From NCBI RefSeq assembly GCF_018861145.1, contig NZ_JAHKQT010000044.1, positions 1 to 64,000 of the forward strand: a stretch of DNA of 64,000 bases, given 5' to 3'. The DNA comes from Poseidonibacter lekithochrous. GTDB lineage: Bacteria > Campylobacterota > Campylobacteria > Campylobacterales > Arcobacteraceae. The first letter of the stretch is position 1. Each line of letters starts with the position of its first letter. Positions 7,751 through 64,000 of the stretch are shown one piece after another. The notes beneath the pieces were generated by a model. It ran no database searches and was not told the DNA's origin. It worked only from the letters and a program-made list of their open reading frames with translations. A program made the translations under genes and the position numbers.

Positions 7751-9031
7751 ATGCTTAAAAATCTGGTTGCATTAAATCAATTTATAAACAAAGAAGCCCT
7801 AAGTGGAATTTTACTTTTTCTAGCAACAGTTGCAGCTGTTATTGTTGCAAACTCTAGTTTAGGACAAGACTATTACGACTTATGGCATTTACCTCTTGGA
7901 ATCAATGTTGGAGAACTTTCAATATCTATGACATTAACGTACTGGATAGATGATGGATTAATGGCCCTATTCTTCCTTATGGTTGGACTTGAAATAAAAA
8001 GAGAAATGATGATAGGTGAATTATCAAGTGTTGCTAAAGCATCATTCCCAATTATTGCTGCAATTGGTGGAATGTTAATTCCAGCACTTATATATGTAGG
8101 CTTTAATCCTGATAATCCACTAGGATTTGGTATTCCAATGGCTACAGATATTGCCTTTGCTCTTGGTATTTTAATGCTTTTAGGAACAAGAGTAAATCCA
8201 GCATTAAAACTATTTTTAGTTGCACTTGCAGTTGTAGATGATTTAGGTGCTGTTTTAGTTGTTGCTACAGTTTATACAAGTGATATTCAAACACAATATT
8301 TTTTACATGCAGCTATTATATATGCAGTAATTTGGGGATTAAATATTAAAGGTGTTACAAAACTTTTACCTTATTTAATTTTAGGTATCGCTTTATGGGT
8401 ATATATTCATGCTATTGGTATACATGCAACTATTGCTGGAGTTTTATTAGCTTTTGCAATTCCAATCAAATCTAAACTTGATGAAAAAAACTTTATTGAA
8501 GAATCAAAAAAAGATATTGATGATTTTGAAAAACATATAGATGAAATTCCTATGTTAAACCATCATCAAATTGATTCACTTGAAAATATTGGATACAACT
8601 ATGATAGGGTTCAAAATCCACTTGTAAGATTAGAGCATCAACTTCATGGTTTATCTGCCTTTTTTATCATGCCATTATTCGCCTTTTCAAATGCAGGTGT
8701 AATTATAGACTTTTCTACAATAGATGCAAACTTAATGATAGTTTTAGGTGTTGTGTTTGGTCTAATTATTGGTAAACCTATTGGTATTTTTGGATTTACA
8801 TATTTAGCTACTAAATTAAAAATAGTTAAAAAACCAGATAATATCTCTTGGGCAGAGGTTATAGCAGTTGGTTTCTTAGGTGGAATAGGATTTACAATGT
8901 CTATTTTTATAACACACCTTGCTTTCTTAGATGAATCAGTAATAGCGGCAGTAAAACTTGGTGTTTTCGCAGCTTCATTTATTGCAGCCATTATTGGTGT
9001 TTTATTAATTCTTAGAGTAAAAAAAGCATAG
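7751..9031 (+). CDS. nhaA: Na+/H+ antiporter NhaA
   Basis: Inner-membrane sodium/proton antiporter, 426 residues, about 12 helices. Family hallmarks: 'WIDDGLMALFFLMVGLEIKREMM' region near 60-85, 'GIPMATDIAFALG' (near 127-139) and 'ALAVVDDLGAVLVV' near 160-172, whose Asp pair is the ion-binding site in E. coli NhaA (D163/D164). A hydrophilic insertion (about 245-290) lies between the two halves. Ribosome site AAAGGAAA lies 7 bp before the ATG. A terminator overlaps the stop codon. Role: sodium export and pH homeostasis, consistent with a saline habitat. Confidence 0.95.
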   Translation: MLKNLVALNQFINKEALSGILLFLATVAAVIVANSSLGQDYYDLWHLPLGINVGELSISMTLTYWIDDGLMALFFLMVGLEIKREMMIGELSSVAKASFPIIAAIGGMLIPALIYVGFNPDNPLGFGIPMATDIAFALGILMLLGTRVNPALKLFLVALAVVDDLGAVLVVATVYTSDIQTQYFLHAAIIYAVIWGLNIKGVTKLLPYLILGIALWVYIHAIGIHATIAGVLLAFAIPIKSKLDEKNFIEESKKDIDDFEKHIDEIPMLNHHQIDSLENIGYNYDRVQNPLVRLEHQLHGLSAFFIMPLFAFSNAGVIIDFSTIDANLMIVLGVVFGLIIGKPIGIFGFTYLATKLKIVKKPDNISWAEVIAVGFLGGIGFTMSIFITHLAFLDESVIAAVKLGVFAASFIAAIIGVLLILRVKKA

Positions 9032-9050
9032 TTAAATCTATGCTTTTTTA
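9020..9050 (+). terminator. Terminator overlapping the nhaA stop codon
   Basis: Stem AAAAGCATAG (9022-9031) pairs with CTATGCTTTT (9038-9047) around a 6-nt loop, ending in a run of T. The 5' arm contains the nhaA stop codon. Confidence 0.75.
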
Positions 9051-9056
9051 TTTAGA

Positions 9057-9062
9057 TATAAT
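9057..9062 (+). promoter_or_regulatory. -10 element of araC-type gene; suggests leaderless transcript
   Basis: TATAAT ends 5 bp before the ATG at 9068 and no ribosome-binding site is seen. This is the same arrangement as in front of the Fur-family regulator. Confidence 0.45.
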
Positions 9063-9067
9063 AATTC

Positions 9068-9859
9068 ATGTCAAAGTTACTTACAAATACTCTTTTTGAA
9101 AATGTTACACATTCAACTGCAGATTTTACTAGACACTACCATGATACATATACTATAGGATTAACATATAGAGGTGTTTTAAAATCTTATAATTCTTATG
9201 AAAGTTATGAGTCTTATGAATATTCAGTACGAATTAACAATCCAGGTGAAGTTCATGCTGGAAAATCTAAAGATTGGTCTCATGTAAATTTCTATCCATC
9301 AGTTGATCTTATGACAGATTTATATCAACAAATATTTTATGATAGAAAAACACCTTTTTTTAAAAGACTTATAATTGAAGATAAAATATTATTTGCAAAA
9401 CTACATAATTTTTTTGATTCATATTTTAAAAATGAAGATGATATAGTAATAGAATCTAATCTAATTGATGCCTTATCTCATCTTATAATTAGTTCTACAA
9501 TTTATACTAAAAAATATAATGATATATTTGAAGATAAAAAAATAATCAAAGATACTTATGAATTTATCAATGATTCAATTGATACTAACTTTACACTAGA
9601 AGCACTTGCATCAAATGTAAACCTTAGTAAATTCCACTTTTTAAGATTATTTAAAAAAAACTTTGGATTAACACCTCATGCTTTTATAGTAAATGAAAGA
9701 TTAAATCGTGCAAATAATCTAATCAAAAATGGATATTCACTTAGTTCTGCAAGTGTACAAGTCGGGTTTAACGATCAATCTCACTTTTCACGTAACTTTA
9801 AAAAATATTTTGGTTACACGCCATCTTATTTACAAAAAAATAGCAATATTATTCTATAA
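9068..9859 (+). CDS. AraC-family transcriptional regulator
   Basis: 263 residues. N-terminal AraC-type sensing domain (about 1-100; begins 'HYHDTYTIGLTYRGVL', a cupin-like start with paired His) and C-terminal double helix-turn-helix (about 165-258) with 'NLSKFHFLRLFKKNFGLTPH' and 'SASVQVGFNDQSHFSRNFKK' followed by 'GYTPSYL', the standard AraC signature. The next two genes encode an EamA exporter and an APC permease in the same direction; AraC proteins of this build often control adjacent amino-acid exporters, which is the likely job here (inference). Confidence 0.85.
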   Translation: MSKLLTNTLFENVTHSTADFTRHYHDTYTIGLTYRGVLKSYNSYESYESYEYSVRINNPGEVHAGKSKDWSHVNFYPSVDLMTDLYQQIFYDRKTPFFKRLIIEDKILFAKLHNFFDSYFKNEDDIVIESNLIDALSHLIISSTIYTKKYNDIFEDKKIIKDTYEFINDSIDTNFTLEALASNVNLSKFHFLRLFKKNFGLTPHAFIVNERLNRANNLIKNGYSLSSASVQVGFNDQSHFSRNFKKYFGYTPSYLQKNSNIIL

Positions 9860-9921
9860 ATTATTTTTATTTTCTACTATACTTCTTCCAGAATAAAAAA
9901 ATCGATAGATAAAAGATACAT

Positions 9922-10824
9922 ATGACACAAGCAAATAAAAACATATTTTATATTTTAATGATTCTAGCAATGGCTGGTTGGGGTGCATCATGGGTTAATG
10001 CAAAAGTATTAAGTTCTTATGTAAATGAATATGAAATGATATTTTTAAGAAACTTCTTTACTATTATAACTTTAGCCCCAGTTCTAATAATAACTAAAAA
10101 ATATTTTTATATAAATAGACATAGCTTATTACTAGCTGTATTGGCATCTGTTATTATGATTGTATATTTAAAGTGCTATTTCTTAGGAACAATGCATGGA
10201 ACAGCATCACTTGGAGGTGCACTTGTAACTACTTTGATTCCTATAAATACTTTTATCTTTATGGCTTTATTTTTTGGTAAAAAAATATTAAGAAAAGATA
10301 TTTTTGCTCTTATAATTGGAGGAGTAGGTGTACTTACAATGCTTAACATTTGGTCTTTTTCATATGAACAAATATTTTCAACACAAAATATGTATTTTTT
10401 AGGGGCAAGTATATTATGGCCTGCCTTAACAATTACAAGTTCAAAAATTACTAAAACTTCTCCTATGGTATTTACCTTGTATATGTATATCATAAGTACA
10501 GCAATGGTTTCTATATTTTTTGTAGATTTTTCTGCAATAAACTATGAAGCATTTGATTCAATATTTTGGATAAATCTTTTAGTTTTATCAATAATTTCAA
10601 CGACTTTTGCAACAAGTGTATATTTTATTGGTATTGAAAAACTAGGAACAAATGAAGTAAGTTCTTTTATCTTTTTAGTTCCATTTTTTGCTATAATTTT
10701 AAGTATAATTTTCTTAGGTGAAACTGTACATCTAACTACAATTATAGGTGTAATTTTAACACTTTTTGCCGTTAAGACCTTAAATAATATTACCATATTT
10801 AAAAAGAAGAAAATTGAGCAATAA
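9922..10824 (+). CDS. EamA/DMT-superfamily transporter
   Basis: 300-residue inner-membrane protein with ten predicted helices in two EamA repeats (about 8-140 and 155-290). Motifs such as 'WGASWVNAKVL' near the N-terminus and 'SVYFIGIEKLGTNEVSSFIFLVPFFAIILS' region late in the second repeat are typical of drug/metabolite exporters of the YdcZ/RhaT-EamA group. Substrate unknown; amino acids or other metabolites are common for this family. It overlaps the next permease gene by 11 nt and follows an AraC regulator, forming a likely regulated transport unit. Confidence 0.85.
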   Translation: MTQANKNIFYILMILAMAGWGASWVNAKVLSSYVNEYEMIFLRNFFTIITLAPVLIITKKYFYINRHSLLLAVLASVIMIVYLKCYFLGTMHGTASLGGALVTTLIPINTFIFMALFFGKKILRKDIFALIIGGVGVLTMLNIWSFSYEQIFSTQNMYFLGASILWPALTITSSKITKTSPMVFTLYMYIISTAMVSIFFVDFSAINYEAFDSIFWINLLVLSIISTTFATSVYFIGIEKLGTNEVSSFIFLVPFFAIILSIIFLGETVHLTTIIGVILTLFAVKTLNNITIFKKKKIEQ

Positions 10825-60865: not shown

Positions 60866-60893
60866 ATAACTAGTAGGAATTCCTACCAGTTAT
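60866..60893 (-). terminator. Terminator of the di-iron/flavoprotein/PhnD-like operon
   Basis: 28-nt inverted repeat centred on GGAATTCC, 14 bp arms with one mismatch, containing the stop codon of the PhnD-like gene and followed on the minus strand by TTTATTTATATT. Confidence 0.7.
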
Positions 60894-61710
60894 TCTGCAT
60901 TAAACCTTGTTCTTTCATAGCTTGAGTTAAGACCTCATAACCTTTAAGTTCAGCAGGCCCTGTTTTAACCCATTTATTTAGGCCTTCCATTTGCATCATT
61001 TTTTTAATTATTGGATCTTTTGGATCTTGACCTAATAACATTTCGGTAAATACTTTCTGGATACTTTCATCTAAACTATCAAGTACTGTAAAATTACAAT
61101 GACAATAACCCTCACTTACAAAAAATGATTCTACTTCACCACTTGGGAAGATTCCTTCTTCAAGCATTCTAACCCATGAACTAATTCCAATTGCTCCCGC
61201 ATCAATTTCATTATTCATAAGTGCTTCAAGAATATCAAATTCACTTCTTCCTGTATCTCCATGTTTTCCTAAGTCTGAATTAAATCTTATGATATTTACA
61301 TTGTTATTTTGTCCAAGTTCATCTTCAATGTATTTTAAAGGTAAAATAGCAGCTTGTGCAGAATCTGCACTTCCTAAAGCAAAGTTTTTACCTTCTAAAT
61401 CTTTAATACTTTTGATACCACTATTTGCTTTTGTAATAAAAACAGATTGAAAATCAATATCTGTATCTCTCATAACTAGGGCTTTAGTTTTTCCACCACT
61501 CAATTCATTACTTCTTACCCATGCAACATTTGTATTCCATGCTACATCAATCTTATTTGATAATAAATATTCAACTTGCGCTTCATAGTTTGAAAATAAA
61601 ATATAATCAAGTCTAACACCATTGTCATTAAAATAGTCTCTTATAATATCCCAAATAGGAATAACTTTTGGATCGTAAGCTACGGCTCCAAGCATAATTG
61701 GTTTTTTCAT
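60883..61710 (-). CDS. PhnD-like substrate-binding protein without signal peptide
   Basis: 275 residues with the two-lobed binding-protein fold of the phosphate/phosphite/phosphonate (PhnD) family: 'GAVAYDPKVIPIWDIIRDYF' opening, 'DVAWNTNVAWVRS', 'QSVFITKANSGIKSIKDLEGKNFALGSADSAQA' region and 'NEIDAGAIG'. There is no signal peptide or lipobox, so the protein should stay in the cytosol, and no ABC permease or ATPase is adjacent. It is the last gene of a unit with a flavoprotein and a di-iron protein (8-9 bp gaps). It may bind a small ligand or substrate for these enzymes. Role inferred from position only. Confidence 0.8.
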   Translation of the reverse strand: MKKPIMLGAVAYDPKVIPIWDIIRDYFNDNGVRLDYILFSNYEAQVEYLLSNKIDVAWNTNVAWVRSNELSGGKTKALVMRDTDIDFQSVFITKANSGIKSIKDLEGKNFALGSADSAQAAILPLKYIEDELGQNNNVNIIRFNSDLGKHGDTGRSEFDILEALMNNEIDAGAIGISSWVRMLEEGIFPSGEVESFFVSEGYCHCNFTVLDSLDESIQKVFTEMLLGQDPKDPIIKKMMQMEGLNKWVKTGPAELKGYEVLTQAMKEQGLMQNNW

Positions 61711-61718
61711 AATTTTCC

Positions 61719-62846
61719 TTAAGGTATTGGTTGATTAGTTAAAGCTTTTCCAAGCCAAATAGAAAGTACATCCGTACTAGGCGCCATAACTTGTGCGGCA
61801 TAAGCATCTCTTAGTAGTCTTTCAATAGTAAGTCGTTTAGCATAAGCTGTTCCACCTCCAACTTTCATTGCTTTATTACAAACTTCAACTGCCATATTTG
61901 AAGCATTTAATCTTGCAGATATAATTTGTGCTAAGGCATCAGCATCACCATTTGCTCCACTTTTTGCAGCTGCAAGAGTAAAGTGTTTTGCACTTGTTGC
62001 ATTTGTAAATATTTCAGCTATATGATTTTGAACAGTAGGAATTTCACATAATGCTGATGAATCACTATATTTTCTATTTTGTGAATATTCTATAATAGTA
62101 TTACAAGCATTTAAAGCCACACCAGTGTACACAGCACTCAATCCTATTACGAAAAATGGCGCTACAACATTAAATACTTGCTCCGCTCCACTTCCTGCTG
62201 TTCCTACTCTATTTGAAATATCTACATTCACATTGTTAAATAACATAGGCATAGAAGCATTTCCTCTCATTCCTAAACCATTCCATGCTGATTCTTCAAA
62301 ACTAATACCTGCTAAGTCTTTTTTTATAATCCAGTTATCTAAGCCTTCTGAATCAAAACTATTTGAAAGTACTAAGTAAAAATCTGCATAAAGAGCAGAA
62401 GTAACAAAACTTTTTCTTCCATTCATAAATAATTTATCATTTTCTTTACTTACAGTTATTTCTGGATTATAAAAATGTGTTCCTGTACCTGTTTCACTAA
62501 AAGCAAGGGCTAAAAGCAATTCACCATTTGCTATTTTAGGTAAGTACTCTTTTTTCATTTCATCACTACCAAATGCTACTATACACATAGTTGCAACATT
62601 ATGCATCATATAACATAATCCTGTTGTTGCACAACTTGATGCAAAAGCTAAAACTGTTTGAGTATGTTCTTCAAGTCCAAGTCCTTGTCCTCCATACTCT
62701 TTTGGTACAACTAATCCAGTTATTTTTTCTTTTTTAATAGCTTCAAAACTATCAACTGGGAATGTTGCATCTTCATCAACTTTTTGTGTAAAAGGTTGAA
62801 TATTTGATTGAGCAAATTCCATCATTTTGTTATAAGTATTATCCAT
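61719..62846 (-). CDS. Acyl-CoA-dehydrogenase-fold flavoprotein lacking the usual catalytic Glu
   Basis: 375 residues, full ACAD fold: N-terminal helices, beta domain with 'LALAFSETGTGTHFYNPEI' (FAD-contacting region) and C-terminal helical domain with 'MKVGGGTAYAKRLTIERLLRDAY'. Where classical dehydrogenases have 'YEGT' with the catalytic Glu, this one reads 'VMAPSTDVLSIWLGKAL'. From memory this ending is like flavin-dependent oxygenases of the ACAD fold (DszC-type), so it may be a monooxygenase rather than a fatty-acid enzyme. Between a di-iron protein and a PhnD-like protein in one operon. No acyl-CoA metabolism genes are nearby. Confidence 0.8.
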   Translation of the reverse strand: MDNTYNKMMEFAQSNIQPFTQKVDEDATFPVDSFEAIKKEKITGLVVPKEYGGQGLGLEEHTQTVLAFASSCATTGLCYMMHNVATMCIVAFGSDEMKKEYLPKIANGELLLALAFSETGTGTHFYNPEITVSKENDKLFMNGRKSFVTSALYADFYLVLSNSFDSEGLDNWIIKKDLAGISFEESAWNGLGMRGNASMPMLFNNVNVDISNRVGTAGSGAEQVFNVVAPFFVIGLSAVYTGVALNACNTIIEYSQNRKYSDSSALCEIPTVQNHIAEIFTNATSAKHFTLAAAKSGANGDADALAQIISARLNASNMAVEVCNKAMKVGGGTAYAKRLTIERLLRDAYAAQVMAPSTDVLSIWLGKALTNQPIP

Positions 62847-62854
62847 TCTTTTTC

Positions 62855-64000
62855 CTACATAAAATTTGGTGTATGAACTTTAGAAATATCATGCGCTAAA
62901 TCCTCATCCATACCTATTTGTATTAATCTTTTAATTCTGTTTTCATTCATTGTTTTTTTTAACTCTTCAACTAAATCAAACCCTCTTTTAAAGTCAGTAG
63001 CAGAATCACTTCCTCCTGCTAATATTGATAAGGATTCTAAAAGCATAGAGGATTCAGTATTTACTTCATCCATAAACTCTTTTCTTTGATATGCACTATT
63101 TTTTAAAGCATTTATTCTATTTGGATTTTGTTCAATTGCAGAACGAACATGTTCCATACCATAAGCAACATGACGTATTTCATCTCTTTTTGAAAGTTTT
63201 ATGATTTTTTTAGTTGCATCATCTGGCATATATTTTTCTAAAAAGTTTAAAAGGTCAATAAAAGTACCTTCTCCCATAACATGAAGTAAAAAAGAACTTT
63301 TTAGATAATCATCTTCTTTAAAAAGAGAATAAAGTGATCGTTGTGTAACTTCACTTGAGTACTGAAACCCTCCCCCATTTGCATTAGCTCGTTTTGTAAA
63401 AACTTCTATATGTCTGGCTTCATCATTCATCAAAGAGGATAAAAATAGTGGCACTTCCATATAATAAGGATTAATTTTACTAATAAACTTTCCAGGGATA
63501 TATAAAGCTGAAAACTCATTTTCAACTAGATAAGTCATTATTTGACAAATTGCTTTTTCCATAATTGGATTAAACTCAGGAATTTCATTCCATGCTATAT
63601 CCCTAGTAGCATTCCACTGGGCATGTTTTCCTTCTTCATATAAAGAAGATACAGACTTTGACCAAACTTGCTCTTTATGTGAGAGTTCAAAATCATAACA
63701 TGGCGTGCCATCTTGTCCTACCATTCCTCTTGTCATTAAACCATTTTCATCTGGTGCTTTAGATAATATTTCACTTGAAAGTTCTAAGTCTTTTAGTTTA
63801 GGATTTGAAGTATCAATTCCTTTCATCTTTTTGCCCCAAGATGGTTTTTTAGAAAAACTATCATGACCACTTTTTTTGATTTTATAAGAATAAAGTTGTT
63901 TTAAACTTTCTCGTCCTAAATAAATATGTCCTCGCAATCTTGACCAGCCACGAAGCTCAATTTCAATATTTGACTTTAAGGAAACAATTTCGATTATTTC
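62855..64000 (-). CDS. Ferritin-like di-iron protein, 5' partial
   Basis: The frame is open to the right edge (381 codons visible); a TTG at 63937 is in frame but upstream codons ('IEIELRGWSR') continue the protein, so the start is outside. Numbering from the TTG: four-helix-bundle ligands Glu141 in 'LVENEFSALY', Glu173-x-x-His176 in 'NDEARHIEVF', Glu223 in 'GEGTFIDLL' and Glu253-x-x-His256 in 'KRDEIRHVAYG'. This is the full E, ExxH, E, ExxH set of carboxylate-bridged di-iron oxygenases/oxidases. Reaction unknown. First visible gene of the operon with the ACAD-fold flavoprotein (8 bp gap). Confidence 0.8.
   Translation of the reverse strand, partial: EIIEIVSLKSNIEIELRGWSRLRGHIYLGRESLKQLYSYKIKKSGHDSFSKKPSWGKKMKGIDTSNPKLKDLELSSEILSKAPDENGLMTRGMVGQDGTPCYDFELSHKEQVWSKSVSSLYEEGKHAQWNATRDIAWNEIPEFNPIMEKAICQIMTYLVENEFSALYIPGKFISKINPYYMEVPLFLSSLMNDEARHIEVFTKRANANGGGFQYSSEVTQRSLYSLFKEDDYLKSSFLLHVMGEGTFIDLLNFLEKYMPDDATKKIIKLSKRDEIRHVAYGMEHVRSAIEQNPNRINALKNSAYQRKEFMDEVNTESSMLLESLSILAGGSDSATDFKRGFDLVEELKKTMNENRIKRLIQIGMDEDLAHDISKVHTPNFM

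Follow-up and report, generated by a model that had tools for sequence, protein, structure and literature searches.

A Conserved Gene Unit of Poseidonibacter lekithochrous Built on a Glu-less Acyl-CoA Dehydrogenase-Fold Flavoprotein and a Cytosolic Binding-Protein-Like Partner

A conserved core with an exchangeable third partner

The stretch of Poseidonibacter lekithochrous DNA analyzed here (64,000 nucleotides, G000:C1:1-64000, part of a 95.6-kb contig; hereafter the window) closes with three minus-strand genes that code, in this order, for a TusA-like/di-iron protein, a flavoprotein of the acyl-CoA dehydrogenase (ACAD) fold, and a PhnD-like substrate-binding protein (SBP). Comparison of homologous loci shows that these genes form a real conserved unit, that the ACAD and the SBP are its constant core, and that the third catalyst is exchangeable: it can be the TusA-like/di-iron protein, a radical SAM enzyme, or a core MetE together with an OsmC-like protein. 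Our best explanation, which we hold tentatively, is a cytosolic oxidative module in which a fixed core of Glu-less ACAD and SBP would work with this varying catalyst on a small metabolite that is probably methylated or linked to sulfur.

All features of the window given below lie on the minus strand. The SBP-like protein (275 aa) is encoded at 60883..61710 and the ACAD-fold flavoprotein (375 aa) at 61719..62846. The di-iron gene extends from 62855 through position 64000 up to its TTG start at G000:C1:64105, 105 bp beyond the window, so that the protein has 416 aa instead of the 360 aa of the open reading frame inside the window; this start region is common to its relatives. The initial annotation had described three tightly packed genes, and their positions are as claimed, with gaps of 8 bp on both sides of the ACAD gene.

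We searched 397 genomes of Campylobacterota and 237 genomes from the phylum of the Myxococcales genome G423 (Myxococcota). Among the former, the SBP family occurs in 51 genomes and the di-iron protein in 46, all of them within the 51. The remaining five (G110, G183, G294, G326, and G209) are the genomes that carry the MetE/OsmC-like variant. The SBP search matched 27 genomes of the second set; one match (G648) is an ordinary SBP with an STS motif, and five genomes have the SBP alone, with no match to the ACAD or the di-iron protein. Full-length TusA-di-iron matches in Myxococcota are confined to SBP-positive genomes, where the order is ACAD-SBP-di-iron instead of the di-iron-ACAD-SBP of the window. 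Actinobacteria were sampled through plasmids, three of which provide the radical SAM variant; the Mycolicibacterium vanbaalenii plasmid carries, in this order, genes for an Rv1678-like membrane protein, the ACAD, the SBP, and an Rv1681-like radical SAM protein. The trio, or the ACAD-SBP core, is thus present in three phyla, and the neighborhood recurs elsewhere as the initial annotation had supposed. The searches of 397 and 237 genomes reject a chance or purely local neighborhood. Across all loci the three proteins diverge in parallel, with distance correlations of r 0.95-0.97 (0.88-0.96 in Campylobacterota and 0.57-0.66 in Myxococcota), and shared species history contributes to these values. 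The viral contigs contain no SBP relative, and the plasmids contain no match to the di-iron protein.

Little else travels with these genes. Among 22 campylobacterotal loci, no gene from outside the module is found in more than four, and the myxococcotal loci contain no further recurring family, opposite-strand shadow frames aside. No transporter, reductase, electron transfer flavoprotein (ETF), or regulator gene recurs as a neighbor among the compared loci.

The initial annotation knew of no described system of such composition. This needs correcting for the ACAD and SBP pair, whose sequences are already known: NCBIfam names the pair Rv1679/Rv1680, with no function attached. The Rv1678-Rv1681 families of Mycobacterium (NF049986, NF049984, NF049985, and NF049973) contain a homologous ACAD and SBP-like core in the same order, likewise with a Glu-less ACAD and without an SBP export signal. 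The mycobacterial core is accompanied by one membrane protein and one radical SAM protein, whereas the window has the TusA-like/di-iron protein and lacks the adjacent Rv1678-type and Rv1681-type proteins that define the mycobacterial cluster. The window SBP matches NF049985, the Rv1680 family of SBP-like proteins, with E = 1.5e-96 and 323 bits, below the curated cut-off of 400 bits; the flavoprotein matches NF049984 (Rv1679/FadE16) with E = 2.7e-82 and 277 bits, below a cut-off of 600 bits. By these scores, the SBP is a close relative outside the curated Rv1680 family, and the pair as a whole consists of relatives, not members, of the named Mycobacterium tuberculosis families. Our literature search found no functional account of Rv1678-Rv1681.

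The two core proteins

The model of the SBP (pLDDT 95.8) matches the folds of PhnD, PtxB, HtxB, and ArrX over its full length (Z about 24, 250+ residues). Unlike PhnD, PtxB, and HtxB, the protein has neither an export signal nor a recurring transporter. Its reading frame contains a stop nine codons upstream of the ATG and therefore no signal peptide can be added, which rules out a hidden one and upholds, also under other starts, the missing export signal of the initial annotation. None of 50 SBP relatives has an N-terminus of strong hydrophobicity by the 12-residue Kyte-Doolittle mean, which peaks at 1.98. This index alone is not decisive: two remotely similar SBPs of the same genome score 3.29 and 1.95.

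The pocket was mapped by sequence onto solved relatives (5lq5/7s6g), with the alignment read by hand. Prochlorococcus PhnD1 holds phosphite through Y46, S126, T127, S128, H158, and D205 under the cap residue Y206 (PMC5700983). In the profile alignment these positions correspond to Y42, S117, A/P118, Q119, E157, H204, and C205 of the window SBP. The STS-H oxyanion motif has thus become S-(A/P)-Q-E, and the D-Y cap has become H-C. The replaced STS stretch is D116-S117-A-Q119-A (61351..61365); E157, at the place of the phosphite ligand H158, follows K149-H150-G151-D152 (61240..61266 together), and the H204-C205 cap lies at 61096..61101. S117 and E157 are present in 40/40 relatives, and Q119, H204, and C205 in 38/40 each.

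These residues bear directly on the idea that the module uses phosphonate, phosphite, sulfonate, or a selenium oxyanion delivered by another transporter, with the SBP as cytosolic holder. The PhnD/PtxB fold is consistent with this idea, as are sequence matches of the protein to families of phosphonate, sulfonate, and putative selenate SBPs, the structure-modeling annotation of Rv1680 as a putative phosphonate transporter component (PMC8562490), and, in one relative, a SelD-like gene (named by eye; L080:10686-11732) that immediately precedes the di-iron gene. However, binding of phosphonate or phosphite as in PhnD is unlikely because the STS-H motif and the D-Y cap are replaced, and the Glu at the site of a phosphite ligand is invariant. 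The same pocket analysis argues against the phosphonate-transporter annotation of Rv1680. Moreover, no transporter, C-P lyase, or desulfonation genes were found near the compared loci. We therefore demote the phosphonate/phosphite role and regard an oxyanion pathway in general as quite improbable. The initial annotation had proposed a cytosolic oxidative pathway for a P-, S-, or N-containing compound; the oxidative pathway stays the best reading, and a P compound is disfavored by the lost STS-H motif, the invariant Glu, and the His-Cys cap.

The same pocket could also be read as an active site. The SBP itself may be an enzyme or a covalent carrier, comparable to the SBP-fold enzyme Thi5, with the ACAD and the di-iron protein completing the biosynthesis of a cofactor-like or secondary metabolite instead of degrading one. 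The pocket contains acid, His, and Cys residues that are invariant or nearly so, which would suit this role, and the Thi5 fold is indeed among the structural matches, at lower rank. Radical SAM and di-iron enzymes are common in biosynthesis, as is the VlmB-like fold, and partners of both kinds occur here. On the other hand, no Thi5-type family matches above cut-off except for the broad NMT1 domain, neither conserved biosynthetic neighbors nor transporters were found among the compared loci, and methyl transfer fits the MetE variant more directly. We consider this alternative doubtful.

Stand-alone SBP members occur in genomes without an ACAD or di-iron match (L128:8069-8893, L129:7247-8083, L134:6341-7156, L135:6187-7035, and L136:6522-7373). 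In these proteins the H-C motif is changed to C-R-C, and the remaining pocket is kept.

The second core protein contains the N-terminal, middle, and C-terminal ACAD domains of Pfam. Alignment with solved acyl-CoA dehydrogenases places M354-A-P-S-T (61773..61787) at the catalytic Glu, a position that is Ala in 27/29 relatives and Gly in 2/29, within an invariant M-x-P context. The alternative Glu position, known from isovaleryl-CoA dehydrogenase, is occupied by V, I, N, S, L, or Q and is not acidic among the common residues counted. By alignment and column counts, the base is therefore missing at both known positions, which bears out the "APST" reading of the initial annotation. The flavin monooxygenases of the DszC, HsaA, and SfnB types likewise combine the ACAD fold with the absence of a dehydrogenase base. 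The window protein scores far below the models of these enzymes (SfnB, 96 bits against a cut-off of 431; DszC, 55 against 850; HsaA, 36 against 450) and under all cut-offs of the named flavin-monooxygenase models, and its unit lacks a reductase gene. From the missing base we infer that the flavoprotein may be an oxygenase or oxidase and not an acyl-CoA dehydrogenase.

The varying partners

The di-iron protein of the window gives only weak matches to DUF455, AurF, and R2lox; with the R2-like ligand-binding oxidase model NF006200, it reaches 35.5 bits against a cut-off of 194. Its AlphaFold2 model (mean pLDDT 91.3) consists of an N-terminal unit and a ferritin-like bundle. By fold, the bundle is nearest to VlmB, an azoxy synthase, and to protein 60 (Z 22.8); Z is about 22 for R2-like ligand-binding oxidases and about 21 for aldehyde-deformylating oxygenases (ADO). 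The ligands E195/E197, E229-xx-H232, E279, and E309-xx-H312 (63170..63523) do not vary among 31 sequences with identities as low as 30%. This full set of carboxylate and His ligands on a four-helix bundle places the protein in the ferritin-like di-iron oxygenase/oxidase superfamily and agrees with the complete ligand set noted in the initial annotation. VlmB, the R2-like ligand-binding oxidase, and the aldehyde-deformylating oxygenase share this fold and ligand pattern at 12-18% identity, but the window protein adds a TusA-fold domain, an HTxNFM tail, and the linkage to ACAD and SBP.

Neither the TusA-like domain nor the tail had been part of the initial annotation. In the model, the N-terminal unit shows the E-H-E-H-E-E secondary structure of the TusA fold; the part inside the window (63875..64000, residues about 36-77) contains no Cys motif. 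Pfam TusA matches were obtained for 9/31 relatives (6.8e-07 in one of them) and not for the window protein itself, and none of the aligned N-termini has a sulfur-carrying Cys at the TusA motif. The C-terminal tail, HTPNFM in the window (62858..62875, modeled with low confidence), forms the end of the protein as HT(P/R/A)NFM in 31/31 sequences. SBP-less genomes of the phylum of G423 also have di-iron proteins of a related family that lacks the TusA domain (L130-L133 and L138-L140), often as tandem paralog pairs beside a small protein that looks SCP2-like by eye.

For the Rv1681-like radical SAM protein of Actinobacteria, TusA is the sole Pfam match of the N-terminus (E = 0.013). This match is only suggestive of a TusA-like N-terminus, and when the N-termini of the di-iron protein and of Rv1681 alone were compared as profiles, the match was weak (probability 28). 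The SBP tree indicates that partners have been exchanged repeatedly. The di-iron type appears in both deep halves of this tree, and a topology with one di-iron clade can be rejected (p-AU 3e-9). The partner type must have changed at least three times, or twice without the less certain locus L019 of Miltoncostaea. Two changes are firmer than three because the radical SAM gene of L019 lies several genes away. The Miltoncostaea oceani plasmid (L019:1753-9853) has a richer cluster than is found elsewhere, in which ACAD-SBP is accompanied by two genes for radical SAM proteins, one for a glycosyltransferase, and one for a DUF2064 protein.

Another alternative is a stress- or metal-related redox assembly, in which the SBP would bind a metal or a sensor ligand and help to assemble, or report on, its metalloenzyme partner. 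Every varying partner is indeed a metalloenzyme, and lactoferrin/transferrin-type folds share the architecture of the SBP (Z about 18). Actinobacterial copies stand among thiol-redox genes: on the M. vanbaalenii plasmid, genes for a carboxymuconolactone decarboxylase family protein, a deiodinase-like protein, CcdA, and a disulfide oxidoreductase flank the core (L017:1336-2723 and 8826-10261). In addition, proximity labeling placed MoeX (Rv1681) near the PacL1 metal effluxosome (PMC13043812). The transferrin likeness, however, is at the level of the fold superfamily, no metal-responsive regulator recurs, and the Glu-less ACAD would still need a role. We assign this possibility little probability.

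In the five campylobacterotal genomes with the MetE variant, the genes that come after ACAD-SBP code for a core MetE and an OsmC-like protein (in G294 the genes are broken into several frames). Alignment of a myxococcal core MetE (L034) with solved MetE revealed conservation of the zinc ligands (H, C, E, and C) and of the residues that contact homocysteine (S, E, and D). Apart from the cluster MetE, G183 gives no matches to PF01717, PF02574, or PF02219, and by these searches it lacks MetH, MetF, and any further MetE. This genome probably makes homocysteine because it has MetY (homocysteine synthase) above cut-off and matches resembling homoserine dehydrogenase and aspartate kinase (1.61 of about 1.71 Mb covered). 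The cluster MetE is the only visible candidate for a methionine synthase in G183, with methionine auxotrophy or unrecognized enzymes as the other possibilities. G110, G294, G326, and G209 also carry a full-length MetE. As every checked genome of the di-iron type keeps MetE, MetH, or both, we reject the idea that the di-iron variant replaces these enzymes.

Core methionine synthases have been described, as has an O2-dependent pair, MesD/MesX (PMC7857596). The MetE variant resembles MesD/MesX in that it has a core MetE without the folate domain and may be folate-independent and O2-linked, but its neighbors are the ACAD, the SBP-like protein, and the OsmC-like protein, and the window variant contains no MetE at all. 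In a narrower version of our proposal, the core would be a novel type of oxidative machine in the cytosol that takes up a small methylated metabolite and either frees its methyl group or passes it on. The core MetE would pass this group to homocysteine by a folate-independent route distinct from MesA-D; in the other variants, an oxidant of the TusA-like/di-iron or radical SAM type would have taken the place of this step on more than one occasion. We judge this version to be unlikely.

Proposed function and surrounding genes

In the cytosolic oxidative module that we favor, the SBP would hold a small metabolite in its His-Cys-capped pocket, a ligand different from the oxyanions of PhnD, and the flavoprotein would act on this metabolite as an oxygenase or oxidase. 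The di-iron protein, as terminal oxidant, would dock on the core via its TusA-like domain, its conserved C-terminal tail, or both, and activate O2 to oxidize the same metabolite further. A methylated or sulfur-linked metabolite is proposed because the MetE variant and the TusA- and OsmC-like parts point to it. Its methyl group may be given to homocysteine in one variant and oxidized in the others.

Several points weigh against this proposal. The unit contains no flavin reductase or ETF gene. The TusA- and OsmC-like parts lack a reactive Cys, and therefore a role in sulfur transfer does not follow. The MetE and di-iron variants appear to be linked by the shared core only, the radical SAM variant is known from three plasmids only, and the exchange of partners could mean that different pathways use one core.

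If the proposal is correct, a binding-protein fold has been retooled for intracellular work, and oxygen-dependent, radical, and zinc-thiol catalysts have been exchanged on a fixed core, which would be unusual. The unit offers a handle on the uncharacterized Rv1679-Rv1681 genes of M. tuberculosis, and through the MetE variant of G183, one more folate-independent route to methionine becomes open to testing.

By eye, the genes around the unit in the window and at L002 are a UvrD-like helicase gene on one side and, beyond the di-iron gene on the other, MsrQ- and MsrP-like genes. The latter pair has the orientation of the unit and lies some 150 bp upstream of it (G000:C1:64259-65781; L002:6260-7782). 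We rejected these genes as members of the unit, since among the compared loci they are present only in the window's own genome. This genome also contains a SelD-like gene (by eye; L004:2577-3611) beside a different, exported SBP of the PhnD type. A search for RNA elements in ten loci returned tRNA and tmRNA only. In some loci, module genes are split over several frames, possibly by decay or sequencing errors: the di-iron gene in L020, the SBP gene in L081, and the ACAD, SBP, and MetE genes in L070; the radical SAM gene downstream of the L018 SBP is split likewise. Finally, MetF-like (PF02219) matches with one in-frame TGA each were found in the window's genome (G000:C23:60084-60965) and in a congener (G002:C1:2553091-2553975).

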